Below are positions 13,890-60,500 of a DNA stretch of 64,000 nucleotides, in pieces. The translations under genes were made by a program, and so were the position numbers. Every line of letters starts with the position of its first letter. Positions within the stretch are counted from its first letter, which is position 1. Location: positions 1-64,000 of the IMG/VR virus record IMGVR_UViG_3300031788_000007, one strand, 5' to 3'. The notes under the pieces are model-generated. The model ran no database searches and was not told the DNA's origin. It worked only from the letters and a program-made list of their open reading frames with translations. The stretch comes from a virus.

Positions 13890-16052
13890 ATGGGAATCCG
13901 TCGCGCAAATCCTCACTTAGAAGAAATTATTGAGGTGTTGGACCTCCATCTCCAAAAGTACAGTGGCGATCAAGCGAAGGCCCGCGAGTATCTTTCTAAA
14001 GATGACAATGCTTGGATAGATGCAGAGATACTCCACTGCATGACTGAGCGACGTTACTTCCTATCCAACTACTATGCCATCAAAACTGAGGACCGCGGCT
14101 TCACCGGGTTGTACCCGTTTTGGGATTCGCAGGAGATTCTGCATGACGAATTCCGCCGGCTGGAGAAGCAGTTTGGACGCGTAAAAGCAATCGTCAACAA
14201 GGCTCGACAGATGGGGGGCAGCACGTATGTCTCAGGGGAAGTCTTCGCGGCAACAATCTTCAGTGAGCATGTAAACTCCATCGTCGTAGCTCAGGACGCC
14301 GATGTGACCCGGTACATCCTCGATATGTACGCAGCGGCTCTTGACTTTTTACCGTGGTGGATGCGTCCCCGAATTCGCTATCAAGAGGCCGGAAAATTCA
14401 TCGACTTTGATGAGAAAGACGAAACCCTGCGAATCACTCGCCCAGGACTGAAGACGCGCATCTACGGAGACAACGGGAACAAGCCGACCGGAGTGGGGAG
14501 GTCTAAAACTTTCGCAAGAGCCCACCTCGACGAGTTGCCGTTCTGGACCGATCCAAGCCAACTTACTAAAGCACTATTCCCAACCTTCAACTCCCCCGAC
14601 GGCTTCTATGTAATGATTTCAACCCCTAAGGGGCGTAATAATCCTTGGCACAATATGTGGCGTAAAGCGGAAGCTGGAGACATTGACTGGAACCCGGTCT
14701 ATATTCCGTTTTACAGGCGCGAAAAGACGTACTCTCTGCCGATTCCCAAAGGCGAAGTCTTTACGTTGACGAAGGACGAGGAAGAGATAAAATACCTCGT
14801 TCTCAAAAAAGACGGCTTCGCGATGAAGAACGAAGTCTTCAACTGGCGCCGGAAGAGGATTCAGGAATTCATCGCTAACGATGGCGACGACAAAATGTTC
14901 AATCAGGAATACAGCCTTACCGCAGAGGAGTCTTTCCAGACCTCCGCAGTCACCGCATATCCGTTGGGCATCATCAACAAGCTGATGAAACGAGTGCTGA
15001 ACCCGAAGTGGATTGGGGAGATCAGTTACGACTTCGACGCTGGCCGGCCGAAGGTGATGGTCCGCGAAGTGGAGCCGACTGCCGACTTGGAGTATCCAAA
15101 GCACCACAACCGCTTCAGTGTATGGAAGCGTGAGCGGCCAGGCGCGGTCTATGTCGTAGGGGTGGACGTGAGCCTTGGAAACGACGGCGGCGACTTCTCA
15201 TCAGTCACGGTAATCGACATATCTCTAGACCTGCCGAAGGATGAAGTGGTGGCAGTGTGGCACGGCTATATTGATCCCGAGTCGCTGGCTGATGTAACTC
15301 TAGCAATTTGCTGGATGTACAACGAGGCTCTGGCGGCCGTGGAAGTAAATTCGATGGGCATGGTGACGAACAACAAGTTGGTCCGCCAGTACGAGTACGA
15401 GAACATCTATCGGTACAAGCACCTCGACAAACTGACTCATTGGATGACCGACATTATCGGCTTTTGGACGAATGACAAGACCAAGCGGGCCTTGATGTCG
15501 AAGATGTCGAAGACGCTGATTGATGACTTGCTCAACATTCCAGACAAATTCACCGTCGACGAGTTTTATGATTTCACTGAAGATGGAGCCGAGGGAGACG
15601 GGGCTAGGGACGACCTTATGATGAGTCTTCACATCGCTCTTTACTGCGGCCACGAGGCTGAGTACCGCGAGATGCGGGAGGGGACCAGCAAGCAGGAATC
15701 GACAAAGCAGCAGAATGAATTCAAAATCCTCGACCGATTCGGTACAATCATTCAGACGACGAACTCGCAGCATGAAGCGGAGCGAGTGTCGAAGAAGAAC
15801 ATCGGAAGCAGTATCGTGAGGACGGCGGGGGCGACCGCTACAGTCAACCTGAAGGGATTGGGGGAAAGGAAAGTACCTAGCGATTTTCAGAATAGCGAGT
15901 ACAGCCCTGTGTTTGACGGCAATGGGACGGCTTCGCGCATGTACGAGGACGGGATCGATCCGGAGCTGATAACTCCAGAGGCGATAGCCCAGTACGAGGC
16001 GGATCAGGCGGAACTGGACTCGGATGACGAGAATTCATGGCTTTATCAGTGA
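13890..16052 (+). CDS. terL: Terminase large subunit (TerL), full length
   Basis: A 720-aa packaging motor: ATPase plus headful/cos nuclease. The Walker A-type motif is KARQMGGST (104-112); Walker B region HLDELPFW near 211; coupling motif ISTPKGRNN near 245. The RNase H-like nuclease begins VVGVDVSLG near 423 with catalytic Asp, then EVNSMG near 485 and GARDDLMMS near 571. Length is at the long end for TerL. It directly follows TerS. A second, split TerL lies at 46562 and 49010 and shares the blocks AVEVNS-G--TNN-L-RQYE. Confidence 0.9.
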   Translation: MGIRRANPHLEEIIEVLDLHLQKYSGDQAKAREYLSKDDNAWIDAEILHCMTERRYFLSNYYAIKTEDRGFTGLYPFWDSQEILHDEFRRLEKQFGRVKAIVNKARQMGGSTYVSGEVFAATIFSEHVNSIVVAQDADVTRYILDMYAAALDFLPWWMRPRIRYQEAGKFIDFDEKDETLRITRPGLKTRIYGDNGNKPTGVGRSKTFARAHLDELPFWTDPSQLTKALFPTFNSPDGFYVMISTPKGRNNPWHNMWRKAEAGDIDWNPVYIPFYRREKTYSLPIPKGEVFTLTKDEEEIKYLVLKKDGFAMKNEVFNWRRKRIQEFIANDGDDKMFNQEYSLTAEESFQTSAVTAYPLGIINKLMKRVLNPKWIGEISYDFDAGRPKVMVREVEPTADLEYPKHHNRFSVWKRERPGAVYVVGVDVSLGNDGGDFSSVTVIDISLDLPKDEVVAVWHGYIDPESLADVTLAICWMYNEALAAVEVNSMGMVTNNKLVRQYEYENIYRYKHLDKLTHWMTDIIGFWTNDKTKRALMSKMSKTLIDDLLNIPDKFTVDEFYDFTEDGAEGDGARDDLMMSLHIALYCGHEAEYREMREGTSKQESTKQQNEFKILDRFGTIIQTTNSQHEAERVSKKNIGSSIVRTAGATATVNLKGLGERKVPSDFQNSEYSPVFDGNGTASRMYEDGIDPELITPEAIAQYEADQAELDSDDENSWLYQ

Positions 16053-17589: not shown

Positions 17590-17600
17590 TAGGAACTCCA

Positions 17601-33329: not shown

Positions 33330-33352
33330 GGGGGAAGATGGGGAGGAAGTAC

Positions 33353-35520: not shown

Positions 35521-36328
35521 GATTATCGATCTTGAGGGTCAGAGGTTTGGACTACTTGTTGCTCGTAATCGAGCGGGTGTCAATAGGCATGGACAGTCTC
35601 GATGGCTATGCCTGTGCGACTGCGGGGAAGAGACAATTGTGGTTATTGGTAATTTACGCAATGGCATCACGAGGAGTTGCGGATGCTTGAAACACTACGT
35701 ATGCCAAACAAAGTTTAGGACGCACGGAAATTCAAGCGGTGGAGTAAAAACACGAGAATATACAACATGGAGAAACATGCGATCTCGCTGTGGAAATCAA
35801 AATAACACCGAGTGGAAAAACTACGGAGGTCGCGGAATATCTGTTTGCGAGCGTTGGGAATCGTTTGAGAATTTTCTTTTCGATATGGGGAAAAAACCGG
35901 ATGGGTTAAGCCTTGAAAGAGAGGACGTAAACGGAAACTATACCCCGGAAAACTGTCGATGGGCAACACCAAAAGAACAAGTAAAGAACAGGAGAGGAAG
36001 GACTAAATGTAAGCGAGGGCACGAACTAGTGAAGGGTAATGTCTATATCTCCGGTGGGACTCGACACTGCCGAAAGTGTGTTTTGGCGAGAACCTCCAAA
36101 TCCAAGAAACCAACAAATCAGGTTAAGGCTAGAGAATCGTTGGCTTGGGCTGTCAGGTCAGGAAAGATGAAACGACAACCATGTGAAGTCTGCGGAGATC
36201 CTCAATCACATGGGCATCACGAAGATTACAACCACCCATTGTTGGTATCGTGGTTGTGCCCAAAACATCACCTCGACAGACATCATCAACTGCGTCTCCT
36301 TAAGGGAGTGAATGGGGAGACACTGTAG
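35513..36328 (+). CDS. HNH homing-type endonuclease
   Basis: A 271-aa protein. The N-terminal part has a zinc-binding CDCGEE and CGC block, then YTTWRNMRSRCGN ... YGGRGISVCERW ... LEREDVNGNYTPENCRWAT, a module of free-standing phage homing endonucleases also present at 44982. Near the C-terminus CEVCGDPQSHGHHEDYNHP followed by CPKHHLDRHH forms a second HNH-like site. Sits between GT4 and radical SAM genes, breaking the cassette. Its last residues repeat the end of GT4. Confidence 0.75.
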   Translation: MGKIIDLEGQRFGLLVARNRAGVNRHGQSRWLCLCDCGEETIVVIGNLRNGITRSCGCLKHYVCQTKFRTHGNSSGGVKTREYTTWRNMRSRCGNQNNTEWKNYGGRGISVCERWESFENFLFDMGKKPDGLSLEREDVNGNYTPENCRWATPKEQVKNRRGRTKCKRGHELVKGNVYISGGTRHCRKCVLARTSKSKKPTNQVKARESLAWAVRSGKMKRQPCEVCGDPQSHGHHEDYNHPLLVSWLCPKHHLDRHHQLRLLKGVNGETL

Positions 36329-37756: not shown

Positions 37757-37809
37757 GGGCATCAGGCGTTGTAGCGCCCGACAAAAGTCACCGAGATAGG
37801 AGTCTCAGG

Positions 37810-38367
37810 ATGCCCCATGACCAGTTTATCTTAGATCGTCACGAAGTATTCATGGAGAGGTTCTTGGCCAAAATTGAGGTCGTTGGTGAGTGTTGGCTAT
37901 GGATTGGAGCCAAACAGAATCCACGAAGAAGCCAGCCTGTCGGTTACGGAGTCATGGTTGTTTGTCCCCGTCCGAGATATGCAATGTTAGCTCATCGTTT
38001 GAGTTGGGTGTTGCATCATGGGCTAATTCCAGAAGGTTTGGGAGTCCTGCATAAATGCGATAATCCTCCGTGTGTAAATCCAGATCATCACTTTCTTGGA
38101 GATCAGAAGGATAACATGGAGGATTGCGTAACCAAGGGTAGGAAGGAATATGGAGAAAATCACTCTCGGGCTACGCTTACCGAGTCTAAGGTTTTGGAAA
38201 TCAGGAGACTCGCCGATTCTGGGGTAGGACTACCCGAGATTGCATCTCGGTTTAACTCTCCTCACCCCACGATTTGGGCCGTAGCTAAAAGAAAGTCTTG
38301 GAGGTATCTCCCAGAAGAATATTCGATGGGGATGGGATTACCACCGTCGATTCTAAGGACAACATGA
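37810..38367 (+). CDS. HNH endonuclease (HNH_3 type)
   Basis: A 185-aa protein. ATG 37810 follows ATAGGAGTCTCAGG; an ATG at 37753 overlaps the radical SAM stop and is an alternative. GECWLWIGA, GYGVM ... AHRLSWVLHHG and LHKCDNPPCVNPDHHFLG form the HNH_3 nuclease; a C-terminal helix-turn-helix-like module (EIASRFNSPHPTIWAVAKRK) may bind DNA. It interrupts the accessory cassette and ends with a copy of the radical SAM gene's 3' end. Confidence 0.75.
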   Translation: MPHDQFILDRHEVFMERFLAKIEVVGECWLWIGAKQNPRRSQPVGYGVMVVCPRPRYAMLAHRLSWVLHHGLIPEGLGVLHKCDNPPCVNPDHHFLGDQKDNMEDCVTKGRKEYGENHSRATLTESKVLEIRRLADSGVGLPEIASRFNSPHPTIWAVAKRKSWRYLPEEYSMGMGLPPSILRTT

Positions 38368-44923: not shown

Positions 44924-44993
44924 TGAGGGTGTCGGGAGTGCGAATCCCGGCCAAGCCTAATCGCTACTGGAGGTAGCAACCATGACACCCTCA
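44924..44993 (+). promoter_or_regulatory. Inverted repeat sequestering the next start codon
   Basis: TGAGGGTGTC (44924-44933) is perfectly complementary to GACACCCTCA (44984-44993), which includes the G of ATG 44982. Between them a smaller GGGA/TCCC hairpin (44934-44948) and the SD GGAGGT. In RNA the pair would put the SD and start of the endonuclease gene in a large loop or stem, so translation may be controlled. Confidence 0.65.
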
Positions 44994-46124
44994 AACATCA
45001 ATTTAACACCTTTCACAAAACTGTGCCGCAAGGGTCTTCACGAGTACGACGCAACCAAGAAGCTCTGTCCTGAATGTTCCCGAGCCACAAAAGCATCTTG
45101 TCAATTGAGGAACAGAGAAAGATATGTAAAAGCCAACAGCGATAGATACTATTCAAACTATGAACGAAGCAAGGCAGAACATGCGGAATATAGGAAGAAG
45201 AATAGAGAGAAAATCAACGCAAGGCAACTAAAATCTTATCATGAGAACTTAGAGCTAAGGAGAAAACAATCAGCTAAGTATTGCCAGAAAAACAGGGAAC
45301 TGGCGGTGTGGAGAGCGATGGTTCTGCGCTGCACGGATACTAAAAATAAACAATATGAGGATTACGGAGCCAGGGGAATCAATGTTCACAGCGAATGGCT
45401 TGGAGAGAATGGGTATAAGGTTTTTCTCCGAGATATGGGGAAGAGACCAAGCGACAAACATACTCTCGACCGGAAGAATAACGATTTAGGGTACACCCCA
45501 GACAACTGCCGGTGGGTTTTGCCTATAGTCCAAGGAAGGAACAAAAGAAACAATCACCTTATCGAGTACAACGGAAAAACTCAATGCTTGTCTGCGTGGG
45601 CAGGGGAAGTCGGTGTGGGTTCTTCTACTCTGGCAAGGAGAATAACCTTCTGGGGTATAGATAGAGCCATGACCCAGAAACCGCGAATTGTGAACCAAGG
45701 GTTTCACCGTCAACTATGCGACCGAGGCGCAGCATGGTTACGCGACGAGAAATCGTGCCATACAGTCTTTACCGAGTGCGCCCGTAACGTGGACGAAAAA
45801 CCCGACGCAATTGGATGGAGTGGTGAATCTACGTACCTCGTTGAATGTAAGACAACGCGTACCAACTTCTTCGACGATGCCAAGAAAAAGATGAGGTTAC
45901 ACCCAGATAGAGGTGTCGGTTTATTCAGGTACTATCTAGTCCCAAAAGGCATGGTTCTACCAAAAGACGTTCCTGAAAAATGGGGACTCCTGTACGATGG
46001 AGATGTAGTGCAAATAGTCAAAGAGGCTGTTCGGTTCGATGTGAGAAATATCGAAGCAGAGACGCACATTCTTTCTCCGCGGCCTGGAAGGTGGAAAAAT
46101 GGGGCAAACAAATCAACTCCCTAA
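44982..46124 (+). CDS. Chimeric endonuclease: homing module plus PD-(D/E)XK domain
   Basis: A 380-aa protein from ATG 44982. Residues 110-205 (WRAMVLRCTD, YGARGINV, LDRKNNDLGYTPDNCRW) match the homing module at 35513, preceded by a Cys/Lys-rich helical start. From about residue 240 the sequence switches: DEKPDAIGW ... YLVECKTTRTNF is a PD-(D/E)XK nuclease core (Asp, Glu, Lys). Its end overlaps the next gene by 26 nt. Probably a selfish nuclease; fusion of two nuclease types is unusual. Confidence 0.65.
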   Translation: MTPSNINLTPFTKLCRKGLHEYDATKKLCPECSRATKASCQLRNRERYVKANSDRYYSNYERSKAEHAEYRKKNREKINARQLKSYHENLELRRKQSAKYCQKNRELAVWRAMVLRCTDTKNKQYEDYGARGINVHSEWLGENGYKVFLRDMGKRPSDKHTLDRKNNDLGYTPDNCRWVLPIVQGRNKRNNHLIEYNGKTQCLSAWAGEVGVGSSTLARRITFWGIDRAMTQKPRIVNQGFHRQLCDRGAAWLRDEKSCHTVFTECARNVDEKPDAIGWSGESTYLVECKTTRTNFFDDAKKKMRLHPDRGVGLFRYYLVPKGMVLPKDVPEKWGLLYDGDVVQIVKEAVRFDVRNIEAETHILSPRPGRWKNGANKSTP

Positions 46125-46515
46125 ACCGACATTCATTGGAATTACGCAGGATCATCAACGATTTCTTAGCCAACTGACCGACGCGACGAACACCTTGCTT
46201 GGGTACAACGGCACGATCCCGATGGTCAACACGCTCGATCTCAACAACAACCCCATTCAAAACGTAGCCGCTCCGGTAGCGCCCACAGATGCCTTGAACC
46301 TCGGGACGGCGGAAGCTAAATACGCTCCATCAGTGACCGGCCCTCAGTTGGATGTGGGAGGGTCGAACTCGTTGAAGGGGGTGACGTACCTCTACACTTG
46401 GAAGAACAAGGGTTTGAGCGTAACGATCACGACGGCGAAGCTGACGGGCGGGGGGACGAACGGGAGTATGACCTTCACTGCGGGCCTCTTGACCGCGCAG
46501 GTCCAAGCCACTTAG
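46099..46515 (+). CDS. Virion structural hypothetical
   Basis: A 138-aa protein from ATG 46099, overlapping the endonuclease 3' end. Gly/Thr/Asn-rich beta pattern (NTLDLNNNPIQNVAAPVAPTD) typical of tail fibre attachment or N-terminal adapter regions. The overlap hints that the nuclease gene was inserted next to it. Confidence 0.5.
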   Translation: MGQTNQLPKPTFIGITQDHQRFLSQLTDATNTLLGYNGTIPMVNTLDLNNNPIQNVAAPVAPTDALNLGTAEAKYAPSVTGPQLDVGGSNSLKGVTYLYTWKNKGLSVTITTAKLTGGGTNGSMTFTAGLLTAQVQAT

Positions 46516-46561: not shown

Positions 46562-47365
46562 ATGGGGACAGCAACATCATTGACTCTGGATATGCTCAAG
46601 GTGATGACGCCAGATAAAGGTCTGGTGTCGGTCGGCGAGGGGCCTTGGGGAGAGATTTACGCCGATTACCTGAAGAACGCCGGAAACAGGAACATTGTTT
46701 GGAAGCGTCGGCAATTGGGTATGACGACGTTCTCTCTGGCGCGAGGGTTCTTGAAGGCCGCCGAAGGGAAGACCTGCATCATCGTTGCCCATCAGTTTGC
46801 TGGAGCGGATTACCTTTGGGATATGGTGGAGACATTCATCGCTAACCTTCCTGCTCCACTGCCGATCAAGTGGAAGAATAGTCAGAAGCGCTATTTTGGA
46901 TTGGATGGGCGCTTCCCAGCGCAATTCCAAATTGGTCACTTGATGATGGCTGGATTTGGATTAGGAATGAATGTAGACTTTGTTCACTTGCAAGAGTTTG
47001 CATGGTGGCCGAGGCGCGATCAGGAGAGGGTGTGGCAGGCTTTGGCTCCATGTCTAAAACCAGACGCCGAGGTAATCATTGAATCCGCTCCAAAAGAAGA
47101 AGATAACGGACTGTTTGACGAAATATGGAAAGGAGCACCCGCATACGGATTCACCCGTCACTTCTTCCCGTGGTGGAGGGATTCTCGTTACGTTGCCGAG
47201 CCCGTCGATCCTAAGAGTCTGAAGAAGGCCGAGAAGGAATTGATTGACGATCATGGATTGACGCTGGAGCAAATCGGCTGGAGGCGCAAGCAGTGTGACA
47301 GATTCATGGAACTCTACGGAAGTGAGAAGATGTTCAAGATGGAGTACAGTGAATCGGTCCAGTAA
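46562..47365 (+). CDS. Second terminase: ATPase-only half
   Basis: A 267-aa protein from ATG 46562 after GAGGAGGGGAT. The Walker A-type motif is KRRQLGMTT (48-56), the Walker B region VDFVHLQEF (138-146; Gln-Glu where full-length TerL has Asp-Glu), and the coupling motif IIESAPKEEDNG near 175. The final FKMEYSESVQ corresponds to the end of the ATPase domain of the full TerL (FNQEYSLTAEESF). The nuclease half is a separate gene at 49010. No nuclease residues here. Could be a packaging motor variant or a decaying paralogue. Confidence 0.75.
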   Translation: MGTATSLTLDMLKVMTPDKGLVSVGEGPWGEIYADYLKNAGNRNIVWKRRQLGMTTFSLARGFLKAAEGKTCIIVAHQFAGADYLWDMVETFIANLPAPLPIKWKNSQKRYFGLDGRFPAQFQIGHLMMAGFGLGMNVDFVHLQEFAWWPRRDQERVWQALAPCLKPDAEVIIESAPKEEDNGLFDEIWKGAPAYGFTRHFFPWWRDSRYVAEPVDPKSLKKAEKELIDDHGLTLEQIGWRRKQCDRFMELYGSEKMFKMEYSESVQ

Positions 47366-47381
47366 GAAGAGGGGGTAAGGG

Positions 47382-47984
47382 ATGTACGGATGGGGATGGT
47401 ACGGAACGAAAAGTCTTCAAGTGGTTCCTGTAATGAAGGGGACGCCATGCTTTCTCGACGGCATGATGAGCCACTTGTATTACGAGACGAAGCGGCTTGG
47501 TAAAATCCGGCAAACATTCTGTGGAGACGAGTTCTCGCATGACCACTTCATAGCCTACTTCGAGGCTCTGAAAACCGCTCAAGTTCTCTGCCGGGTGACC
47601 GATGAGGGGAAGTTGATTCCGGTCGGATACAGTTGGGTGAGCAATCCGCGAGGGGTAGACGGAGGCCGGGCCGCGCAGTGCGGGTTCTGCTTCTTGGAGG
47701 ACGGCAGTTCGGGGAAGTCGAGCGCAAGGGACTTGGCGAGATTGGCTGTAGCGTATGCTTTCGAGGATTTGCGGATTGACACAATCCACGGCGTCCAGGT
47801 CATCGACAACATCGCGGCCAGAAACTTCTCCATGCGGCTCGGCTTCAAGCCGGTAGCGGTGGTCCCTGATTACCATGCCATCGACGGCAAGTTGGTAGCG
47901 GCTCAGGTGATGATGCTCAGGAAAGCCGATTTTTGGCCTGGGTTTGTGGCGTGGAAAGAAAAGCAGCCGAAGGTGGGCGAGTGA
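47382..47984 (+). CDS. GNAT-type acetyltransferase-like protein
   Basis: A 200-aa protein from ATG 47382. GYSWVSNPRGVDGG, LARLAVAYAFEDLRI and DNIAARNFSMRLGFKPV are the strand-helix acetyl-CoA pattern of GNAT enzymes. Located between the two halves of the second terminase. Acceptor unknown; GNATs in phages can modify host proteins or virions. Confidence 0.65.
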   Translation: MYGWGWYGTKSLQVVPVMKGTPCFLDGMMSHLYYETKRLGKIRQTFCGDEFSHDHFIAYFEALKTAQVLCRVTDEGKLIPVGYSWVSNPRGVDGGRAAQCGFCFLEDGSSGKSSARDLARLAVAYAFEDLRIDTIHGVQVIDNIAARNFSMRLGFKPVAVVPDYHAIDGKLVAAQVMMLRKADFWPGFVAWKEKQPKVGE

Positions 47985-48169
47985 ACACGATCGAAGAGAA
48001 TCTTGACGAGAAGACGAAGGCCGCCTTGAAGGCGTTTCGAGAAAGTCTTTGCGCAGCGGCGAAGAAGGCGTATTCTGATTCCAGCATCGGAGCGAAGGGC
48101 GACTTCTCACCTACTCGGATTGAACATCCAAACGGAGCCAGCCCTTCCGATGTTTCTGACAATCATTAA
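47981..48169 (+). CDS. Small charged protein (GTG start)
   Basis: A 62-aa protein from GTG 47981 in a GTGA overlap: MNTIEENLDEKTKAALKAF..., helical with an acidic end. Could be a minor virion or chaperone protein. Unknown. Confidence 0.5.
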   Translation: MNTIEENLDEKTKAALKAFRESLCAAAKKAYSDSSIGAKGDFSPTRIEHPNGASPSDVSDNH

Positions 48170-48222
48170 AATCCAGTAGAAAACTTCGCACAGGTGTCGT
48201 ACCCTCCCTGTAGGAGTGCCGC

Positions 48223-48999
48223 GTGTCGAAACCTGTAAGTAGTGCCGGTGCAGAAGTGGCGCAGGACAACCTCGCTAATCAAATGGCCGCTACGGGGGCC
48301 TCAATGACGGCGGAGAACCAGCAACTCTTTGGAATGGCTCTCCCCGGCCTCCAGCAAGCGGAGACGTACTACGGGACGCTGGCCTCTGGCGATCCGAACG
48401 CTTTAGCAAGGGCGAACGCTCCAGCGATTCAGGCGCTCACGAAGTCTACAGACTCAGCCAAGAAAAACATTATGCAAGACAATCCGAGAGGAGGGGAACG
48501 GAACCTCGCCCTTGAGGAAGCGGATTTGTCGAAGGGCGCCCAGATCGGGCAACTGGAGACGGGATCGTATCTTTCATCCTTCGGTTCACTGGCGAGTCTG
48601 GGTGGTCAGAACGTCGGGCAGGGGACATCGGCAGCTTCGAGCGGGTTGCAGGGAATGAACGCGGCGGCGAACCAGTACGGAAACATTCAGCAGATCAATG
48701 CAGCGAACAAGGCGCAGACGATGGGCACGGTTTCTGATTTTGCCGGGATGGCGATGGAAGGTGCGGCGATGTGCTGGGTGGCGGCTGAGTTGTTCGGTGG
48801 CTGGACTGACCGTAGGACGCACATGGTCCGGTACTGGCTCAAGAACGTGTACTCGAAGACTCTCATCGGGTCGATATTCTGCCGGCTGTATCGGCGGTAC
48901 GGGGAGTGGACTGCCAAGCAGGTACGGACTTACAGGCCGGTTCGGTTCGCGGTCAAGCCGATCTTTGACCACTTTTTGATGGAATCTCAAACAATATGA
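48223..48999 (+). CDS. Internal virion-like protein
   Basis: A 258-aa protein from GTG 48223 after TAGGAGTGCC. The first 170 residues are Ala/Gly/Gln/Asn-rich and helical, typical of ejected internal proteins; the C-terminus has CWVAAELFGGW and YRRYGEWTAKQV, a motif repeatedly seen in phage proteins of this kind. Between the GNAT and the terminase nuclease half. Confidence 0.55.
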   Translation: MSKPVSSAGAEVAQDNLANQMAATGASMTAENQQLFGMALPGLQQAETYYGTLASGDPNALARANAPAIQALTKSTDSAKKNIMQDNPRGGERNLALEEADLSKGAQIGQLETGSYLSSFGSLASLGGQNVGQGTSAASSGLQGMNAAANQYGNIQQINAANKAQTMGTVSDFAGMAMEGAAMCWVAAELFGGWTDRRTHMVRYWLKNVYSKTLIGSIFCRLYRRYGEWTAKQVRTYRPVRFAVKPIFDHFLMESQTI

Positions 49000-49009
49000 G
49001 GAGGAAGTG

Positions 49010-49765
49010 ATGGGTAAAGAGAAATACGAACCGATCAACACCGCAAGAGAAGATCAAAAGACTATCACCTTTGTGTGCTCTTGCTGCGGTTCCCTCGTCA
49101 GGTCGGACTACACAGACGCACACGACAGGAAATGCGGGACGCCTGCGGAAAAGGGGATGGATGTGGTGTCAAATATGACTACCAAAGTTCTCGAATTAGT
49201 TGATGAGAGGAGAAAATCGGCTCCATCTCCGATACAAATATGGAGATTCCCTGAACCTGGGAAGTCCTATATTTTAGCGGCTGATCCCTGTACGGGGAGC
49301 GAGGGAGGAGACAATGCGGCGATTGAAGTGATCGACGCAGAGACGGGGGAGCAATGCGCCGAGTTTGCCGCAGTGGTTTCCCCGGAAGACTTAGCTCCCA
49401 TAATCCTTGATTTGGCGCAAAGGTACAACAGTGCGGAAGTGGCAGTCGAGGTGAACAGCGTCGGGCTGATTACAAACAACATCCTGATACGCCAATACGA
49501 GAACGTCTATCGCTATAAGCGCCTAGATAGGGTCAACCATACCGTGACCGATCTTATCGGTTGGTGGACGGACGTAAAAAAAACGAAGGCACTGATGGAA
49601 TCAGCATTCCGCGTAAGCGTTGAGAGGAATCCAAAACTGCTTAACAGCGCGGGCCTGATTGCCGAAATCCTTGCCTATGACGAGAATGGGTATGAGAAGA
49701 ATGATCGGTTCTCGGCGATGATGATTGCTCAAGCGGTTCGTGCCGAAAGAATGGTTACAGTCTAG
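49010..49765 (+). CDS. Second terminase: nuclease-only half
   Basis: A 251-aa protein. ATG 49010 is chosen because GAGGAGG is upstream (GTG 49007 is in frame). An N-terminal zinc-knuckle region (CSCCG ... C) precedes an RNase H-like nuclease: SYILAADPCTGSEGGDN (Asp near 91), VAVEVNSVG (Glu near 147) and a late DRF near 233. It shares AVEVNS-G-ITNN--IRQYENVYRYK and TDLIGWWT with the full TerL. Its TAG forms the start of palindrome copy 12. Confidence 0.75.
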   Translation: MGKEKYEPINTAREDQKTITFVCSCCGSLVRSDYTDAHDRKCGTPAEKGMDVVSNMTTKVLELVDERRKSAPSPIQIWRFPEPGKSYILAADPCTGSEGGDNAAIEVIDAETGEQCAEFAAVVSPEDLAPIILDLAQRYNSAEVAVEVNSVGLITNNILIRQYENVYRYKRLDRVNHTVTDLIGWWTDVKKTKALMESAFRVSVERNPKLLNSAGLIAEILAYDENGYEKNDRFSAMMIAQAVRAERMVTV

Positions 49766-49789: not shown

Positions 49790-51496
49790 ATGGCTGTTGA
49801 CACACCTCAAATCTCGATAGACCCGTATCGCTCTCAGGTTCCCCTCGTCCAGATCCCTCAACAGGACTTGCAGGGACCGCCTCCGCAGGGAGCCATCTAC
49901 AGCAAGACTGGCGGGATTGCGACCATTGCCGATGGAGCAATGAAGGGGCTGTTGAAGGGCCTCCAAATGAAGGAGGAGAAGAAATACAAGACGGCCGAGG
50001 CGGTGATGAACGCCCAGGACGCTGGAATCTCAGCAGCAAAGAAGAACTACGAAGACCTCTTGACGACCGAAGGGGCGTGGACGGTCAGTAGTGATGGAGT
50101 GGCGAAGACGCCGAACTTGAAGACCCAGGCAGCTTATGCGGCCTGGCAGACGGCAGTGAACGCAGCCGCAGCGCAGCGGCAAGCATTCGCTGTTCCCGAG
50201 AAGACGGCGAAGCCGAAGAAGGGCGAGAAAAAAGACAAGACGGCAGCCGATGGAGCGCCGGCTGCGCCGGGGTTTGGCGGCGCCCTGAAGCAATTCTTCG
50301 AGAGGAACCCGCACGTCCTACCGGAACTGACAATCACAGCATGGAAGGCCGGTCAGAACACACCCTACGGGCAGATGTCGCCGGAAGCCTTACAGGCTCA
50401 GAGGCAGAACACCTCCGCTCAACGGCAGGATGCGACCGAGCAGATTCAACTTCAAGGAGCGCAGCGGACGGCGAACGCTCAGAAGGTCTACGACCAGTAT
50501 TCAGGGTTGAGTGCCGAGGAGTTGGCGAAACTGCCGAGGGAGACGCAGCAAGCCTTCCAAGCAGCCAAGAACGTCCTTGTTCCAATTCCAAGGGCGTCGT
50601 CTACAGAGCGTGAATACACATCTCCAGACGGAAAGCAGAGGGAGTGGTATATCCCAGGCACAGAACCGCAGGGGTGGAACGCTACGGCCAATCCAAGTTC
50701 GGGGACATTGAAGGTTGGGACGGAGCCGGAATTCACTTCTCAGGCATTGAAGGGGTACGGCTACACCGCTGACACTGCACCGCCTGCTTTGTTGAAGTAC
50801 CTGCATGACTCGTGGGCCTACAAAGCGGCGCAAACAACCTCTGGCACATCCGAGCACATGGAGACGGACCCGAAGACCGGGGAGTTGGTTGCGGTCAAGA
50901 CGGGCAGTTCGACGACTCGCGGGGCAGCGGCGCCAAAGCCGCCGGCCGGATTCTCTCCTCTCGGAGAGAATGGGCTACCACAAGAATCAGCCGCAGCGAA
51001 GCCAGCGGGGGACACCGCCTCATCGGCGGCCACGCCGAAGACTGGGAAGATGAGCAAGCCTCCAGCCGCGCCGGGCGCAGGAAAAGGAACGATGACGGCC
51101 GCTCCACTGCCGCCGGGAGTGCGTGACACCGGAATCAAATCACTAGCCGGAGTGCAGTTCGACGTTCACTCTGAGGAGTCAACGGCGAAGTCGTATGATA
51201 CGGCGACCCAAGCGTACAACAATCAAATCAACAAGAATCGGTCAAAGGCCGCGGACGCGAAGAGCTTGGAGGCATTGAACGCTACAGCCCGAGAGGACTA
51301 CGAGAAGGCGAAGGCGAGGATCATCATGTCTAGGGCTGCACACATCAAGACGACCGGCGGTGATCCGTGGAAGGTAGTGAAGCACGGCGGTAAGGATGTT
51401 CAATTTTCTCAAGGCCCAGATGGTGTTTACGGAACGATGGATGGAATAAATTGGGTGAACATCAATACGGGAATGCCGTATTCTGGACAGCAGTAA
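49790..51496 (+). CDS. Internal virion-type protein
   Basis: A 568-aa protein from ATG 49790. Ala/Gln/Lys-rich helical segments alternate with Pro-rich linkers (AAPGFGGALKQFFERNP; GKMSKPPAAPGAGKG). No enzyme motif. Composition, size and position before the giant polyvalent gene suggest an ejection protein. Family not recognised. Confidence 0.55.
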   Translation: MAVDTPQISIDPYRSQVPLVQIPQQDLQGPPPQGAIYSKTGGIATIADGAMKGLLKGLQMKEEKKYKTAEAVMNAQDAGISAAKKNYEDLLTTEGAWTVSSDGVAKTPNLKTQAAYAAWQTAVNAAAAQRQAFAVPEKTAKPKKGEKKDKTAADGAPAAPGFGGALKQFFERNPHVLPELTITAWKAGQNTPYGQMSPEALQAQRQNTSAQRQDATEQIQLQGAQRTANAQKVYDQYSGLSAEELAKLPRETQQAFQAAKNVLVPIPRASSTEREYTSPDGKQREWYIPGTEPQGWNATANPSSGTLKVGTEPEFTSQALKGYGYTADTAPPALLKYLHDSWAYKAAQTTSGTSEHMETDPKTGELVAVKTGSSTTRGAAAPKPPAGFSPLGENGLPQESAAAKPAGDTASSAATPKTGKMSKPPAAPGAGKGTMTAAPLPPGVRDTGIKSLAGVQFDVHSEESTAKSYDTATQAYNNQINKNRSKAADAKSLEALNATAREDYEKAKARIIMSRAAHIKTTGGDPWKVVKHGGKDVQFSQGPDGVYGTMDGINWVNINTGMPYSGQQ

Positions 51497-51516: not shown

Positions 51517-54500
51517 GTGGCAGTTCTCGACCAGACCGAGGCTCAAATTCCTGTCGGGTTGACCCCAATCCCACTCGGGCAAGCGCCATCTAGTGAGGCA
51601 AAAATCCCTGCCGGGCTTACTCCTATCCCACTCGGTAGTCAGCAATCGAGTCCAAATTTTGGAGTGAAGTCGCAGACTCAGGCGACTCACGCCGTTACCC
51701 CTCCAGTAGATGTAAAGAGTTCTATCCCTGCCGGATTGACGCCCATTCCTAAGGAAGATTCTCACGTTGACGCTTTCATGGCGGGAATCAGGAAGCCAGC
51801 GGCTCTCCGTCAGCAGGTCTACGACTACACAGTGGGGTCTGGTTATAACGCAGACCAAGGACGCCAGCGCCAGAATGAGTACGACTACGCCATCAAGAAC
51901 GGGATGAACCCACAGCGAGCGCAGGAGTTCGCCCTGGGGATGCAGTTCGAGGGCGGGACACCGAAGTACAATCTCACAGACCAAGAGAAGTCCGATCTCT
52001 ACGGGAAGGCGAAACAGGCCGCAGAGGGATTTAAGAGCGGCCAGCAGAAAACGATTGAAAGTCATTTCCTTGGAGAATCATTATTGCCGGGGGATGACGA
52101 AACATATCGTCAAAACATCGACCCCGACGAATACGCAAGAAACTATGTCAAGGGGTATACCTACGCTCGGTCTCAGGGATGGGATGAAGGGAAGGCGCAA
52201 GAGTACGCCACGTCTGATGCCGCATCGCAGTGGATGACTCGGGCTGGAGAGTGGATTGATCCGAAGTGGCACTCCGTCAAAAGCGCGATTCTCAACGTCA
52301 TTCCCGGCATCTCGAAGCCGGAGGAGAGAGCGGAGAACCCGTTCTTTGCGACGAATCAGGGGTATCGAGAGAATCAGTTCCACGTCTACCATGAGGCTGC
52401 TTGGCTGGATGAGCACGTAGGCAAGGTAGCTGGCAGCGTAGACGCTGGGCTCGGAAACGTGGTCAACGGCTTTTCTACTCCCGGCATGGCAGCATTGATG
52501 GTTGCCAGCGAAGGGCAGGGACTTCTTGCCCGTGGCGGTATAGGGGCGGCCGAAGAAGTCGAGACTGCGAATCTGGCTACACGTGCACTTGGAAGGGTGG
52601 CGCGGGCCGGGGGAAGACAACTTGGCCGGTCGGCAGCGGCAAGCGAGGAGATTGATTCAGCGCAGGCTCTCAGGGCGGCAGAGAACGCAGAAAAGGCCAT
52701 CCGAGCAATTCGTGACGCGAGACTTCCTGTGTCGGCACAGAAGGTGGCGAGAACGTTCAATAAACTCGTCACGGTAGGCTTTACGGCTCAGATGGCGCAA
52801 GGTTCCGCTGAACAACTGGAGCAGGCCGCTAAAACCGCGTTCCCCGGAGAAGGGAAGGACGGCGACAGTGCGCTGGCTGTCGAGTATGCGGTTGAGGGTC
52901 TTGTCAGCGGGTTGATGGCCGTGCAGGGTGGAAACCATCTTCGGCATGAGCATCTTCTCACGTCCGATCTCAACTCAAAGACCGCCGAGATGTACGGGCC
53001 GCAAAAGCTCTCGGATGTTGGCGGCTTACATGAGGGTCCGAGACAGAACGCCGCGACCAAATTTGGCGACCTCGACCCGTATCGACAGGCCGCAGTCATT
53101 CAGCGGTTGATTGAAGATGATCCGAAGTATAAAGCCGCAGAGGATGCAAGCGAGAAGGAGCAAAAGCGGCTTGCGAAGAAGATAGCCTACCGCTACAACA
53201 CAGCATTGCAGCAGGCGTGGAATCCCAACGCGGTAGATCGCATGGTGCGGGTGATTGACAACCATCGCGCAGCGAACGAATGGTACGGCGCAAGACAGAA
53301 GGCGGAGGATGAGGCTCGGAAGCACTACCTCGACCAGATCACGAAGCTCATTGACCTCCACAAGCAAGACAAAGCCGACGAAGAGGAACTTGTTAAGGCT
53401 GAGGCAGAGCGCCGGGCCGCGGCAAGGGAAGGCCGTCCGGTACGGAAGACTGTAGACGCGCAGAAGAGGGAAGAGAGTCGCAAGGTAACTCTGACGAACG
53501 CGGCGCAGATTGCCGAGCATCGGCAGGGGGTAGTAGATGCCCGCGATGTAGCGGATAAGGAAACGGCCGAGCAGGAGAGATCGGAGGCTCAGGACTCCAC
53601 CACGAACTCTCAAAAAGAATGGGACGATCGGTATGCTCGCGTCTACGGTATGCACGCCAGGAATAACCCTGATTGGTCTATGCCTCGTCTCCACGGTGAG
53701 ACGCTAGATATTGTCGGAGAAAGGCCCAAGGAGGATAAACAGGGAGAGTTACGCCACCCGGACGAGGTGACCGACGACCAAGGGTATGTGTCGTACCGTA
53801 GTCAGGTGTTTGGAGGGGAAGAGCACCACTTCGGCGTAGCTCAGACTCCAGACGGGAAGTGGGGAGTCTATCGGAAGACGCCGGATGGGATTGAATACCT
53901 GGGAGCCGGGGGAATCTTTGACGGCCAGCCGCAAGAAAGCTACCTTGCGCCCAATGAAGAGACGGCCAAGGCTCTCGCTCAGATCACTTCCCTTCGGGTC
54001 AATGCCGATTACGCTCTTGAGGAGCATGGAACCACGCCGGAGCGGGAAGCGGAACGGAAGCAACTCCGCGACTTAGAGCACAGTCTGGTAGATGGCACGA
54101 TCACGGGAGAGCAAGCACGCAAAGCCGCCGGACTGCCGGAGGAAGCGCAAGAAGCGCAGGCCAAGGAAAAGGCTAATCACGAGATCGAAGCCGCCAGAGC
54201 AGGAGCATTGAACGGTCCCCTTCACGGCAGAACGAAAGCTCAATACGAAGACGAGTTCCTTGCTGGGCTGGAAGAGGCGGGATGGGAGCCGGAGACGATC
54301 GAAGCGATGATCGACACCCTCCCTCTTCAACTTCGGATGGAGGCTGAGAACAATCTCCACTACGTCGGCCGTTCGGGAGACTGGATTGCCTCGAAGAAGG
54401 GTGTGACCTGGGTTCTCGACTCGAAGGGCATGTTGCAGCCGGACGATGGGATGAGTGCGCCGATCCCACTGATGAAGAATGGCCGCTACTCGACGCAGGC

Positions 54501-57500
54501 AATCGATCTGTCAATGTCGGGAAGGGTTGGATTCGGGCAGCGCAGTTGGGAAGACGCCAAAGTTGAAGAAGCGAAGGAGCGCGAAGCCAATCAGCAGTTG
54601 GAGAATCTTGTCGGAAACGTAGCCGATGAACTCCAGAGAGCCATTGAACTCTCGAAGCAGAACGCTGGCTTACAGATGGAAGCCGGGGAACTCCCTCTTG
54701 AGCGGCCGGCGCCGAAGCCGAGAAGCAGGTTCGCACCTCCAGTCGAAGGCCAAATGGCGGAATCTCCCGAGCGGGAGACTGACCGGGCCGTACAGGAAGG
54801 TCACGAGGCCATCCAAGCCGAGCAGAGGGCATTCGATGAAGCGTGGATTACCTTCATGGCCGAGGATCTGGCTGCGAACCATGAGACTCCGTGGCAGTTG
54901 ATTGAGAGGGTAGCCAAGAACAGCGGCATGACCCCGCAGGAAGTCTTGGCTCTCCAACTTGAGCGGTTGGCTCCTACAGACACCGTAGACGGCAGGATTC
55001 AACGGTTGAAGGCCGGGGACACCATCACCGACAAGATGGGCTTGCCGTGGGTGGTGAGGGCCGACAGGAACGGAACTCTGTATCTCCGTAAGGGGCAGGG
55101 AGCCAGAATCCACGTCAACAAGTTCAAGCCGTCAGACGACGTGCGGAGGATTGTTGGAACGGGAGAAGTTCAGCCGGCGCCAGGGCCGCGGTGGACTCCC
55201 GAAGACGTGCGGAAGGCCGCTTATGAACCTGCCTACATATCCCGCCGCAATGAAGTCATTGAAGAGGTGAAGCAAAGAGAGACGGGAGAGATTAAGGAGC
55301 ATCCACCGGCCACGCCAGAGGTTGCGGAGCGGCAAGCGGTGGCGGCAGAAGACCGTGAAACTCAGGTGAACGATGCGGCAGTAGCGGCAACCGCTGCGGC
55401 TGTTGATCCTCCACCAAAGGCGACCGACAAAGAGATCGACGAAGCCATTTCTAAGGCCGAGGAATTGCGGAAGGTTACCGAGGCCGCAGCGAGACAGGCG
55501 GCAGCCGCCAGAGGGCGCACAGCCGGGCCGGGAGAGTACCCACAGAAGGCGCCCATCACATCGAAGAGGGTTCCAGGGAGAGCATGGGCCGTAGGGCATG
55601 ACGGCTATATCCAGACGATCGCCAGCAAGATTCCCATGCACCGCGAACTCGTTAAATTGAATCAACTCACTCCATCCTTCAGATGGAACGGAAATATGCT
55701 AGAGAGGGTTACTGAGTATCCAGAGCAGATGCAGGATGTCCCCCCCGACGAAGCGACACGTTCACAACTTCTAGCAGATGCCCAGCCGGTCAGGTATGAC
55801 GTTGACCAATTTCTCGACCCAGGTTACGGCCCCGAGCGGGGACCGTCCATTGTGGACATTGGCGGCGATGTAGTTGGAGGGAACCGCCGCTTGCTCAGGA
55901 TGCTGAAGTACCTTGAGTTGATCCATGGAGACAAGGAAGCTCTTGCCGCGTTTCGAGCCAAGATGGCCGAATACGCCGGGAAGAACGGGATGGTGTACCC
56001 AGAGGGAGATGAAATCTACATCCCAGTTCGGATGCTTGACGAGCCGATAGGGACGATAGCCAAAGCGACTGAGTTAGGGCACTTATTCAACAAGAAGGCA
56101 TCTCATGGAATCGACGAAAACGCGAAGTCGATCACCTATGGACGGATGCTTTACGAAGCCCAGAGGACGGAAGAGGCACTAGGACGCAATGGAGTTCTGG
56201 ACCGTATAGCCGATGAGTTCAATAGAGCCGAGACGCCGCGAGATGCAATGGCTAACAAACCTGGATTCTTCGCCAATATAGTGCGAAATGAACTCGGGAT
56301 AGGCGGTGAAGATCAATCAGATTGGTTTAACAAAAACCCGAAGGGAGAATATGAGTTTCTGAGTACGAATGGTAAAGAGAAGCTAGAGAAAGCCCTGCTT
56401 GCCACCGTATTGAAGAATCCGTCTACGATCGACGCATTGGGAAGCTCGACGGCCTACGATTCGTTGCTGAAGTCGATTGGCCCTCTCACGCGCTTACGTG
56501 CCGTTCCAGACAAGGACATCATCAGTGTCATCGAAGAGGCAATTTCAGCCACGGCCACGACCGAGCGGAAAAGGGTTGATGGAGACTCCCCGAGGGTACG
56601 GTGGAATAAGACATTTGGAGAGCGAGAGTTTTTCTCGGACGAGAAGCCCCTCGATGAGCCGGGCCGGATGGTGGAAGCGATTTGGAGGGCATTGCATGAC
56701 CGGAAGACCACACGGTTCAAGAACGCTCTCAATGATTATTTGGTAGGCGAGGGAACCCAGCGTGGATTCTTTGACCCGGCAGAGCATGGATTGAAGACTC
56801 CCGCCGACCTTTTCAATGCGGCCTTCGAGGATGAACTGAAGGACGTGCGCGACTCTCGTGGACTGCAATTGGATGAGGCGAAGAGCGGGAAGTTCAAGGG
56901 CGATAACGCAAGTGGGATGAGAACATTCCTCGACACGCTTTCTTGGGAACTTACTCAGGATCAATTCGACGCTGCTCTTGAAAACCGCGACAATTACGGT
57001 GACGAATCGGTTGAGGATGCGAAGCGGTCAGAGGAAGGGAAGCCGCCACAGGAAGCGCCGAAGCCTGAAGGCGTGTCGAAGAAAATGTTCATCACGAAAC
57101 AAGATGAACGTGACCTGAAAGGACTCGGTTGGAAGCAAGAGCAGATCAATGCGATGAAGCCCGAAGAGGCGCAGGAGATTCTGTCTCTCGGGAAGCAAGC
57201 GCCGAAAGGGTTCAAGCCCCCAGAGCCCCCAGCGCCGAAGCCAGAAGCCGACCTCTCAGCGGCCAAAGCCGAGAAAGGCTACGTCACCCCCGACGAACTG
57301 GAGAAGTTCATCTCTGACCATCCGGCCACCGCAGATCATGCTCCTGAGATCATGCGTACCGCAAGGATGATGGCAGAGTATGTCTTCGATTCAGACCCAC
57401 CGGAGGGAGTGGAGAAGAAAGACGCTCTCGCCTGGGTGTTGGAGCAGCGCGTAGCAAAGTTGGCCTATGAGGAAAAGGGGAAGGGGAGAGGCTCCTACTC

Positions 57501-60500
57501 TGACCCCGAGATCGAGAAGGGCATTGGCACCCGCATTTTGAAGTTGACGAAGGCTTCAGATGAGACGACCTTCATCCATGAGTTCGCGCACGTCATCTTC
57601 CCGATGCTCTCTCAAGAGGACATGCGGGCCATCGACACGATCACCGGAGAGAAGGGTGAGCACTGGAAGCATGGCGACCCGCTCCGCGGCGAAGCCTACA
57701 AAACTGTCAGCGAGAAGTTTGCGCACGGGCTTGAGAAGTTCCTGCGGGACGAGAACCCGACCGGCTTTAGTGCTGAGGTGAAGAAGGTACTCGCCAAGGT
57801 CAAGGAGATGTTCCAAGCGGCCTATCTTCGGTTCCGTAGCGACCCGCTCTCGACGTTCAATCTGAGTGAGGACGCGAAGGAAGTCTTTGCGAATATGTTC
57901 CACATCGAAGACCTCGACCCCGCAGACGACTTCAGAAAGCAGCGAGAGGAAGCTCGCAAAGCAGACGCCAAGCAGAAGAAGGGCATGGTGAAGCCGGAAG
58001 CGGCTTTGCACCCAATTCAGCAGTTGGCGAAAGACCTGGGGCCGAAGCCAGTCCAAATTTTGGAGTCGATTGACGGATCGGTTGAGGATTCTTCAGGGGA
58101 GCGCGTGGACCCGTCGAAGCCGATGGCTGCATTCGTTTACGACGATGAAGAACATGCAGCGCAAGCCTATCTAAAAGCCGCAGAGGAAGGCTCTGGCGTG
58201 GCCGGCGTGGAGTTCGTGCAGACGAAGGACGGAAAGTACGCTGTCCGGTTCAACGTCAAGGCCAAGGTGCCAAAAGACATTCTCTATCAGGACGCGCAAG
58301 AGAAGCACCCCGGCCTGAGACTTGAGGACATGGAAGCGAAGTTGAAGACGACAACCTCGCCGATCCTGAAGAAGTTCCTTGAGACTCAGATTGGCAGGTT
58401 GAAAGCGGAGATCCGTAACGAGCCAAGGCCGCAGGTAGAACCCGGTTTGGCGAAGCAGGCAATCGCGGAGGTGAAACGTGGCACAGAAGGGCGAAAGACA
58501 GACACGGGACGAGCGGGGGTATCCGACTTACGAGGAGTACCTGATGGAAATCCTGGGGATGCAAAGCAAGCAGGAGTTGGACGACTTTCTCGGCCGCCCA
58601 TCATGGGGATGCCTGGACATGCAAGTGCCGGAGGTGCCGCCGATCGAAATAGACCCGGAGGAGGAAGTTCTCAGCCAGTTAACCTCGCAAACGTAACGCC
58701 GGTCAGACTCCAGCCGTTCGAGAGGGGGCGCGGAACACCAGTTGGCATCCTCGCCGGAGAGAAGTTTGACGAGAAGGTGTGGAGAGATGGCCTAAAGAGG
58801 GCTGGCCTTCCAGAGAACATGCCAGCGCCGACAGTGACGCTCTCCCCCGAGGTTGCTCGGACATTGAAGTATGCAGGACAGAAGCAGATCGTTCAGACCG
58901 TCCTATCAGCACTGGAGCAAGGAGACGGGGCTGTGATTGCATCTGTGGCGGGTTCCGGCAAGACATGGACGGAGATGGGTGTGGTTAAGGAAACGATCCT
59001 TCGGAACCCCGACGCCAAAGTTCTTGTCATCACCATGAATCGCGGATTGCTAGAAGAGGGCGACGATGCCGTTCGACAGGTAGCGAAGAACGGCTACGAT
59101 TTGAAGGTTGAAACCGACATCCTCGACAAACCTCCCGAGCCGGGTGTTTACGGGGCAACCTACCAGCGGTTGCTCAATAACTCCATCTACGCTCAAACGC
59201 AGTGGGACTTGGTGATCGCCGACGAGTCAGGAGCAGCGCGTAACTGGTACAGAGATGAAAACCAGCAGGGCAAACTCCTGAAGGCTGTGATGGACAACGC
59301 CAAGAAGGGTGTGTACGTCTCGGCGACTCCGTTCCATTCGCCTAACGAATACGGCTACGCCGAAAAGTTGAACTTGTGGCCGAAGGGAGGATTTGAAGAC
59401 TGGATCAAGAACAACTTTGCCCACGAGAAAATCGGCGACAAGGTGGTTGCGAAGCTCGACCCGGCAAAGCAGGCAAAACTACGTGAGCAGATGGTTGAGC
59501 GTGGGCAGTTCATCTCGCAGCAAATCTCCTACGATGGATTCTCTGTCCACTTCGGAGTGGTCCCTGTAACCGACGTGGTGGAACGGAAGCTAGACCGCAT
59601 CCATCAAGGAATTGCAGTTATGAAGAGGGAGTTGCTGAAGCAGGGCAAGAAGGGACTCTCTGAGCGGGTATCTGCTTTTGAGGCGACGTACACGAAAGCC
59701 TATCTTGAGCGGTCGAGACTGCCAGAGGCCATCGAAGTCGCAAAGAAAGCAAGAGCGCAGGGATGGCAGGTAGCCATATTCTCAGAAACCACATCTGAAG
59801 ACCTTTTCCGCCGGCCGGTTGGCCCGAAGGAGGAGCCGGGAACGTATCGTCTGTTAGACGAGGAAACCGGCGGCCAAATATCGCGCATCATGCCAGAGTT
59901 CCCGAACATTGCGGACGAACTCAAAGCCGAGTTTGGCGATGAGATGGGTGATTACAGCGGCGTTGGGAATACCGACGCGCAGCGCGAAGAGGCGAAGCAA
60001 GCCTTTTTGAAGGGGAAGAAGAAAGTTCTCTACACTTCATATGCCGCAGGAGGAATCGGCATCAACCTGCAAGACAAAGACGGAGATAAGCCAAGAATCT
60101 CCATCTTCCTTGGGCCGCCGTACTCTGGAATTCTACTCGAACAATCATTGGCGAGAACGTGGCGATTGGGAGTGAAGTCGAACGCGAGGGCGGTGTTCCT
60201 TGCGACAGACTCAGAGCCGGACATTCGTTTGATGGCTACAAAGATTGGGCCTCGCATGAGGGCGTTGAGCGCGGCGGTTCTAGGCGACCGTGATTCTTTG
60301 GCTTCGGTGATGACGAACTACACCGACGAAGAGAAGATGCGTGAACATCAGGACATGATGGCGTTCGACCAGGGCAACGAAGTGAAGGTTGACGCTCAGG
60401 GCTTCCAAGTGCGGAGCAAGCGGAAGGTCAATTTCGACAACTGGAGTTCGATCACCTTCCCGAACGCTGAAGAAGCCAAGAACAAAGGTATGCAGGTGGA

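Follow-up and report, generated by a model that had tools for sequence, protein, structure and literature searches.

Single-domain paralogs of the large terminase accompanying an intact TerL in a family of metagenomic tailed phages

The window analyzed here, a stretch of 64,000 nucleotides (positions 1–64,000 of the IMG/VR record IMGVR_UViG_3300031788_000007), comes from a virus of bacteria. It encodes a complete large terminase, TerL (13890..16052, + strand), of 720 aa, assigned to PHROG 2 (E = 1.7e-20) and having 48–54% identical homologues in the related IMG/VR contigs G001–G003; this protein is the packaging motor of the phage. As an earlier note on this DNA had pointed out, further TerL parts are present alongside it. 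An ATPase-only paralog (46562..47365, + strand; 267 aa) comprises the full ATPase core and lid without a nuclease domain, and a nuclease-only paralog (49010..49765, + strand; 251 aa) represents a TerL nuclease of the RNase H/RuvC type. The distance between them is 1644 bp and accommodates a GNAT gene, a small ORF, and a 258-aa ORF, as the note had described, so that in this genome both single-domain genes lie in one operon within a span of no more than 3.2 kb. Each ORF has its own start and stop, and the ATPase and the nuclease are not fused in one chain. A Shine-Dalgarno sequence directly precedes the ATG start in both cases, GGAGGGG for the ATPase-only gene and GGAGGA for the nuclease-only gene, which starts at 49010.

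The ATPase-only gene occupies a slot in a late cassette whose neighbors recur in related genomes. Upstream of it are a gene for an HNH endonuclease that carries a second domain at its C terminus (44982..46124, + strand; PHROG 3377, E = 1.9e-43, and PHROG 631, E = 7e-30) and a gene for a short fiber-like protein (46099..46515, + strand) with a weak tail-fiber PHROG match and 39–47% homologues, which precedes the slot in relatives as well. The HNH gene, of the homing type, may have aided shuffling at the slot. The constant neighbor on the other side is the GNAT acetyltransferase-like protein (47382..47984, + strand; Pfam PF13302, E = 2e-7), with homologues in G002, G003, G005, G006, L224, L226, and L227. 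The small ORF (47933..48169) and the 258-aa protein (48223..48999, + strand; 70% identical to its homologue in G006) follow, the latter being probably internal-virion-protein-like by its position. Downstream of the nuclease-only gene lie a 568-aa protein (49790..51496, + strand), with 29–40% homologues at the same position in G002, G003, G005, and G006, and, at the end of the cassette, a giant protein of 3828 aa (51517..63003, + strand; PF13872, E = 2e-8; PF04851, E = 3.8e-8), which contains a strawberry-notch-type helicase region and also has homologues in relatives.

The ATPase-only protein is 25% identical to the TerL of the same phage (E = 5e-13), and a profile built from it and its relatives retrieves the T4 gp17 ATPase structures (E = 2e-21). 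Its AlphaFold2 model, predicted for this half alone (pLDDT 86.8), has the T4 gp17 ATPase as the top Foldseek match (E = 2.7e-10). The "(Q)EY" motif, with which the ATPase lid of TerL ends, is followed by only a few more residues before the ORF stops at the domain boundary, as the earlier note had proposed. The protein has a TerL-fold ATPase domain with a P-loop and a catalytic Glu: the P-loop Lys/Arg and the catalytic Glu are kept, and K48, R50, G53, and E145 are invariant in alignment A7. Two other residues, each present in 57/57 sampled TerLs, are lost in both known ATPase-only proteins. The coupling Thr of motif III is replaced by Ala/His, and the Gln of the adenine motif by Gly, the latter call being made in a poorly conserved N-terminal alignment and backed by the fact that residues 1–48 contain no Gln in either protein. 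The Walker B motif does read QE rather than DE, and since the 56%-identical relative has QE too, this is a fixed feature. Taken alone, QE, although unusual, is no sign of inactivity, and we reject it as a proof thereof, because the residue before E varies in full TerLs: it is S in 30/57 and either D or S in all but one of the 57 sequences, the exception having A.

The nuclease-only protein is closer to the TerL of this phage (36% identity over 177 aa, E = 5e-33), and the motifs AVEVNS, TNN, RQYE, YRYK, and TD-IG-WT noticed earlier in both proteins indeed align. The profile of the protein and its relatives matches nuclease structures of T4-type gp17 (RB49 3c6a, 3e-29; T4 3cpe, 8e-27), and the AlphaFold2 model of this half (pLDDT 80.8) finds the RB49 gp17 nuclease as the best Foldseek match (E = 3.8e-10); the PF17289 match (E = 0.0012) is under the Pfam cut-off. 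The protein has an RNase H fold with three metal-binding acidic residues, D92, E147, and D232, and the same D-E-D site is present in the relatives that are 63% identical as well as in the divergent copy from L226. A 70-aa N-terminal extension carries a CxxC..HxxxC cluster in the window genome only. Membership in the RuvC family was considered and rejected, as sequence-profile and fold comparisons match TerL only. Neither profile nor fold places either protein outside TerL. Among the ORFs scanned, which are a part of all ORFs, no resolvase of the RuvC, RusA, or endonuclease I type was recognized; one HNH ORF is weakly like endonuclease VII.

An assembly chimera is unlikely. The whole stretch recurs, with proteins that are 100% identical, in a separate record, IMGVR_UViG_3300029914_000487 (35 kb), which is perhaps not an independent sample, and the neighboring genes have syntenic homologues in four more records, including one near-identical pair. 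It could be imagined that one gene was broken by an intron or a (split) intein and is rejoined by splicing, in the manner of the group I introns of phage terL; indeed, in L135, a related TerL, an intein is inserted precisely at the ATPase/hinge boundary, the point at which the ATPase-only protein ends. However, no Rfam intron was detected in the window, including 46–50 kb, nor any intein motif or domain on either single-domain protein. Besides, the hinge of about 60 residues found in full TerLs is absent from both proteins, the ORFs have starts and stops of their own, full genes intervene between them, and the halves are apart in relatives. We therefore reject a split restored by splicing, which is scarcely credible.

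The distribution of the two genes is patchy. Only four distinct nuclease-only and two distinct ATPase-only sequences are known. Nuclease-only relatives, 62–64% identical, occur without an ATPase-only gene in G001, G002 (88.6 kb), and G003 (97 kb), either in the gap between TerL and portal, where the gene adjoins both in G001/G002, or in a cassette matching that of the window pair, and a divergent nuclease-only gene sits in the slot of L226 (an 18.6-kb fragment). The ATPase-only relative, 56% identical, is carried by G005/G006 without a nuclease-only gene at a third site, and the contig of G006 lacks a nuclease-only gene yet spans both sites known for it. Overall, the sites used are the TerL–portal gap, the slot before GNAT, the gap behind the 258-aa protein, and a position upstream of a metallopeptidase gene. 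The two halves were not found together in these related genomes, whose contigs are incomplete, so that a partner could lie unseen. Another 45 contigs of the family, most of them short fragments, have full TerLs only, the strongest GenBank matches examined for cultured phages are all full-length TerLs, and scans of bacterial and archaeal genome contigs yielded no relative. The literature on split or duplicated TerL offered only intron-split terL and one prophage annotated with two TerL ORFs.

Conservation of both genes across distant relatives is 56–66%, while their synonymous sites are saturated or nearly so (dN/dS of about 0.11–0.12 for the nuclease-only gene; dN 0.35 and saturated dS for the ATPase-only pair). 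The earlier suggestion that the genes may be decaying, which would make them remnants of a duplicated or invading TerL, could draw on the partial nature of the proteins and on the HNH endonuclease genes close by. Nevertheless, catalytic residues and reading frames are kept in distant relatives, and since both genes are conserved in spite of (nearly) saturated synonymous sites and have strong ribosome-binding sites, neither is decaying, and this reading has become most improbable. In the trees of TerL parts, the ATPase-only and the nuclease-only proteins each form a clade of their own (support 100/100). The nuclease-only clade is sister to the TerLs of the family at 97/96 in the first tree, strong support being absent in the second. 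The AU tests reject a recent copy of the ATPase part of this phage's TerL as the source of the ATPase-only gene (p = 0.005), and the corresponding origin is borderline for the nuclease-only gene (p = 0.063). Grouping of the ATPase-only proteins with the TerL of the family (p = 0.42) and their origin from CRP-7/Bas95-like TerLs (p = 0.27) are both compatible with the tests, and for the L226 nuclease, membership in the same clade versus separate capture gives p = 0.45. By these comparisons of sequences, both genes may descend from one ancient second TerL.

Such a common ancestor would fit a genuine second terminase of two subunits that acts in trans and packages the phage's own DNA under other conditions or another substrate, e.g., a satellite; both domains are indeed present in the late cassette 1.6 kb apart. 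Still, the halves are solitary at unrelated sites in relatives, neither protein has the hinge, and the ATPase-only protein has lost the coupling Thr and the adenine Gln, and we regard a two-subunit enzyme as unlikely. Of the two terminases claimed in the earlier note, what stands is that both extra genes are TerL-derived and additional to the intact TerL; a second terminase split by unrelated genes is not supported, since with the halves alone at different genomic sites, the intervening genes of the window are not an insertion into one gene.

A further, doubtful proposal is that the slot in the late cassette repeatedly captures single terminase domains, perhaps from several sources, which then work in trans, either retuning the packaging motor as exchangeable parts or serving as decoys against bacterial immunity that senses TerL. 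Avs-type bacterial sensors recognize TerL by its fold, and surplus single domains might fill such a sensor without triggering it. Avs sensors are known to target TerL; one Foldseek match of the ATPase-only model, a fold match only, is 8dgc, the structure of Avs3 with the PhiV-1 terminase bound; and the fast turnover of the domain type in one slot suits an arms race. On the other hand, the genes lie in a late cassette, the strictly conserved nuclease active site would be needless for a decoy, and single domains might trigger the sensor instead of blocking it; anti-defense decoys as such seem improbable. The patchy distribution and slot variation, as in accessory genes, together with the altered ATPase motifs, could likewise be expected of a weapon against competing phages or satellites, in which a free nuclease or a dominant-negative ATPase domain poisons the packaging of rivals. 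However, no rival-specific feature was found, and the nuclease-only copies are more alike (63% identical) than the TerLs of the same genomes (49–53%), and we give this idea little credence.

What the analysis establishes is that each gene is a complete TerL domain conserved without the other gene at varying sites, and that single-domain TerL paralogs are kept in one family of metagenomic tailed phages. Since some relatives have only the ATPase gene and others only the nuclease gene, at differing sites, the two appear to be helper genes maintained independently of each other and not the fragments of a single enzyme. That the two are separately inherited paralogs with auxiliary roles beside a normal TerL is the explanation we prefer, with confidence that is about evenly balanced. 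Both genes being in one operon, as expected of a two-subunit enzyme, counts against it. The nuclease-only protein is predicted from its sequence to be an active metal-dependent RuvC-like nuclease, which would be made late along with the morphogenesis genes and might act in trans on packaging DNA, either trimming or debranching concatemers or producing ends for the TerL motor by cleavage; the location of the gene beside TerL and portal in G001/G002 links it with packaging. As for the ATPase-only protein, it would bind NTP via its P-loop; with the adenine Gln and the coupling Thr lost, it is unlikely to be a motor that translocates DNA, and a role exerted through binding, in which it regulates TerL or the portal vertex, is more probable.

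TerL is regarded as an indivisible two-domain enzyme, and its sequence is used as a marker in tailed-phage phylogeny. Single-domain paralogs that are conserved and separately inherited beside an intact TerL mean that the domains are usable alone in nature, and they provide natural reagents for asking what each domain does in trans. Since one domain alone scores as a terminase, TerL-based classification of phages and metagenome contigs could mislead. Both proteins are like TerL (T4 gp17 type; Pfam Terminase_6N/6C, PHROG 2) in profile, active-site residues, and predicted fold; TerL, however, is one chain with a hinge, whereas here the genes are separate and lack the hinge, and the phage has an intact TerL as well. 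In Jug phages, terL is split by group I introns, and the RNA-spliced pieces make the phage's TerL (PMC12363816); the terL sequence there also occupies more than one ORF, but in our case there is no intron, and the genes are free-standing, conserved, and accompanied by a complete TerL. Among the TerL inteins (L135, L145, L148), one is located at the same ATPase/hinge boundary, while the single-domain proteins are without intein halves. The head-completion nuclease gp4 of T4, which is reported as necessary for packaging (discussed in PMC7824862), is likewise an extra nuclease beside TerL encoded among morphogenesis genes, but it has a restriction-endonuclease fold, in contrast to the TerL-derived RNase H fold of the nuclease-only protein. 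Finally, Mn2+ supports activity of an isolated TerL nuclease domain, whose closest relative by fold is RuvC (PMC5389553); Holliday-junction resolvases of the RuvC family are stand-alone proteins as well, but sequence and fold place the nuclease-only protein with the TerL nucleases.

Besides its intact large terminase (TerL, 720 aa; 13890-16052, + strand), the phage carries the two TerL-like ORFs claimed in the earlier note, one ATPase-only (46562-47365, +) and one nuclease-only (49010-49765, +). The 267-aa ATPase-only protein aligns to residues 99-346 of this intact TerL (25%, E=5e-13), and the 251-aa nuclease-only protein, starting at the ATG at 49010, to residues 409-582 (36%, E=5e-33). Single-sequence scans of the pair gave little: PF17289 in Pfam, under the cut-off (E=0.0012), PHROG 38407 (E=1e-12), which the full TerL matches too, and no match in NCBIfam; profiles built from relatives of both proteins strongly matched solved TerL structures. 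Each half, predicted alone as the note had proposed, gave a confident model; among solved structures the ATPase half best matched the T4 gp17 ATPase, and the nuclease half the RB49 gp17 nuclease. A second IMG/VR record (35 kb) contains this block too, its proteins being 100% identical, so the arrangement does not depend on one assembly alone; the window comes from a virus record of 78,982 bases.

Downstream of the intact TerL lies a P22/SU10-type portal gene (17586-19436). Full TerLs of this family bear a conserved C-terminal extension of ~120 residues past the nuclease domain (15690-16052 in the window). An ORF at 63221-63874 (-), 41-65% conserved in four relatives, weakly matches terminase small subunits (PHROG 57, E=4e-4). 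Other genes include an RNA ligase (33338-34324; PHROG 968, E=3e-31), a phage-encoded peptide deformylase with homologues in related phages (11289-11939; PHROG 2890, E=2e-22), and a 3828-aa ORF (51517-63003) that includes a helicase region of the strawberry-notch type and probably encodes a giant protein associated with the virion.

The pair had been read as one terminase split by unrelated genes. Related contigs do not support this: there each half occurs alone and at differing sites, unlike one gene interrupted by insertions. The nuclease-only protein, at 62-64% identity and with no ATPase-only partner, is found in G001 (42 kb), G002 (89 kb), and G003 (97 kb), whose full TerLs are 48-54% identical to that of the window. 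In the near-identical G001 and G002, its gene is flanked by a TerL-adjacent gene and the portal gene, and in G003 by a fibre-like gene and a GNAT gene. The ATPase-only protein, at 56% identity and with the nuclease-only protein absent, is found in another near-identical pair, G005 and G006, upstream of a metallopeptidase and large tail-cassette genes; the 48.8 kb of G006, running from within TerL through portal and capsid to the whole cassette, cover both known nuclease-only sites, which are empty. In the window, the slot between the fibre-like (46099-46515) and GNAT (47382-47984) genes holds the ATPase-only gene, and the nuclease-only gene follows a 258-aa protein (48223-48999). A six-frame profile search (four models, known genes as positive controls) returned the same one-or-other pattern. 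An 18.6-kb fragment, L226, has a divergent nuclease-only protein in the G003 slot (7722-8399; 28-30% to the others) that keeps the three metal-binding acids; its cassette genes are ~60-82% identical to their G003 counterparts, so the gene was either replaced or evolved fast. G028 (55.6 kb) and G018 (46 kb) encode a full TerL; the searches used detected neither type of single-domain gene in them. The two genes are conserved independently and inherited separately, in the pattern of mobile accessory genes.

The phylogeny of TerL parts, also proposed earlier, places both types in clades of their own (100/100 each). The nuclease-only proteins of the window phage, G001, and G003 branch outside the TerLs that these phages encode; their clade joins the window-phage TerL family at 97/96 in one tree and without such support in a second tree with different rows. 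The ATPase-only clade sits on a long stem that the tree does not place firmly. Its origin as a recent copy of the own-phage TerL ATPase was rejected (AU p=0.005), and the trees and AU tests exclude the present pair as a freshly split TerL. Union of the ATPase-only proteins with the TerLs of the entire family (p=0.42) or with a Roseobacter CRP-7-like group (p=0.27) was not rejected. Both genes may thus stem from a single ancient second TerL that broke up, or they may be two unrelated captures.

Decay, another earlier suggestion, is contradicted by dN/dS of 0.11-0.12 for nuclease-only pairs where dS is estimable (values of dS >2 being rough) and by strong Shine-Dalgarno sequences before both genes; for the ATPase-only pair, dN=0.35 and dS is saturated. 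Restoration of a split TerL by splicing was ruled out: no Rfam intron was matched, and the TerL hinge (~residues 347-408, EESFQTSAV...) is missing from both proteins, so that joining them would not yield TerL. The TerL of related contig L135 has a LAGLIDADG intein exactly where the ATPase-only protein ends, which may only show a boundary tolerant of breaks. Such inteins occur in related full TerLs (L135, 5992-9213; L148, 5992-9039; L145, 273-3491) at three different sites: where the ATPase domain meets the hinge, at the Walker A motif, and directly past the third nuclease acid.

The nuclease-only protein retains D92, E147, and D232. The window copy has an N-terminal CxxC...HxxxC cluster (49073-49137), a possible zinc finger, absent from the G001 and G003 copies. 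The ATPase-only protein retains the P-loop Lys K48 (ahead of RQ, as in the TerL group of this phage), R50, G53, and the catalytic E145. The reported QE in place of DE in Walker B is real and notable, but the Gln is not disabling alone, since, of 57 sampled full TerLs, 30 have Ser at the Asp position, 26 have Asp, and 1 has Ala. More telling are two other losses: the adenine-motif Gln and motif-III Thr, each invariant in the 57, are replaced in both ATPase-only proteins, the former by Gly and the latter by Ala or His; the adenine-motif region is weakly aligned, but the first 48 residues of either protein contain no Gln at all. The two lost residues are those through which TerL motors contact adenine and link hydrolysis to movement; because they are lost, the ATPase-only protein is predicted from its sequence to be a poor motor.

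As for activity, timing, partners, and role, we infer that the ATPase-only protein would most likely work through binding, and the nuclease-only protein as a free RuvC-like nuclease aiding the processing of replicating or packaging DNA. The location of its gene next to TerL and portal in G001/G002 suggests a part in packaging. The phage has genes for a RecT-like annealing protein and for exonucleases, and no resolvase of the RuvC, RusA, or endonuclease I type was recognised among the part of its ORFs scanned. Some of its HNH genes weakly match endonuclease VII; four HNH endonuclease genes (30530-31132, 35513-36328, 37753-38367, and 44982-46124), one with an added C-terminal domain, lie within 16 kb in a region variable among relatives. 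A decoy or an interference role is possible for either single-domain protein.

A search of the open literature, with few subscription papers covered, returned no description of conserved single-domain TerL paralogs that stand alone in a phage with an intact TerL; an intron-split terL has been described (PMC12363816). TerL domains are known, and it is their arrangement here that is new. The nuclease-only protein may be likened to the TerL nuclease domain of phage G20c, which is RuvC-like and, when isolated, active with Mn2+ (PMC5389553).
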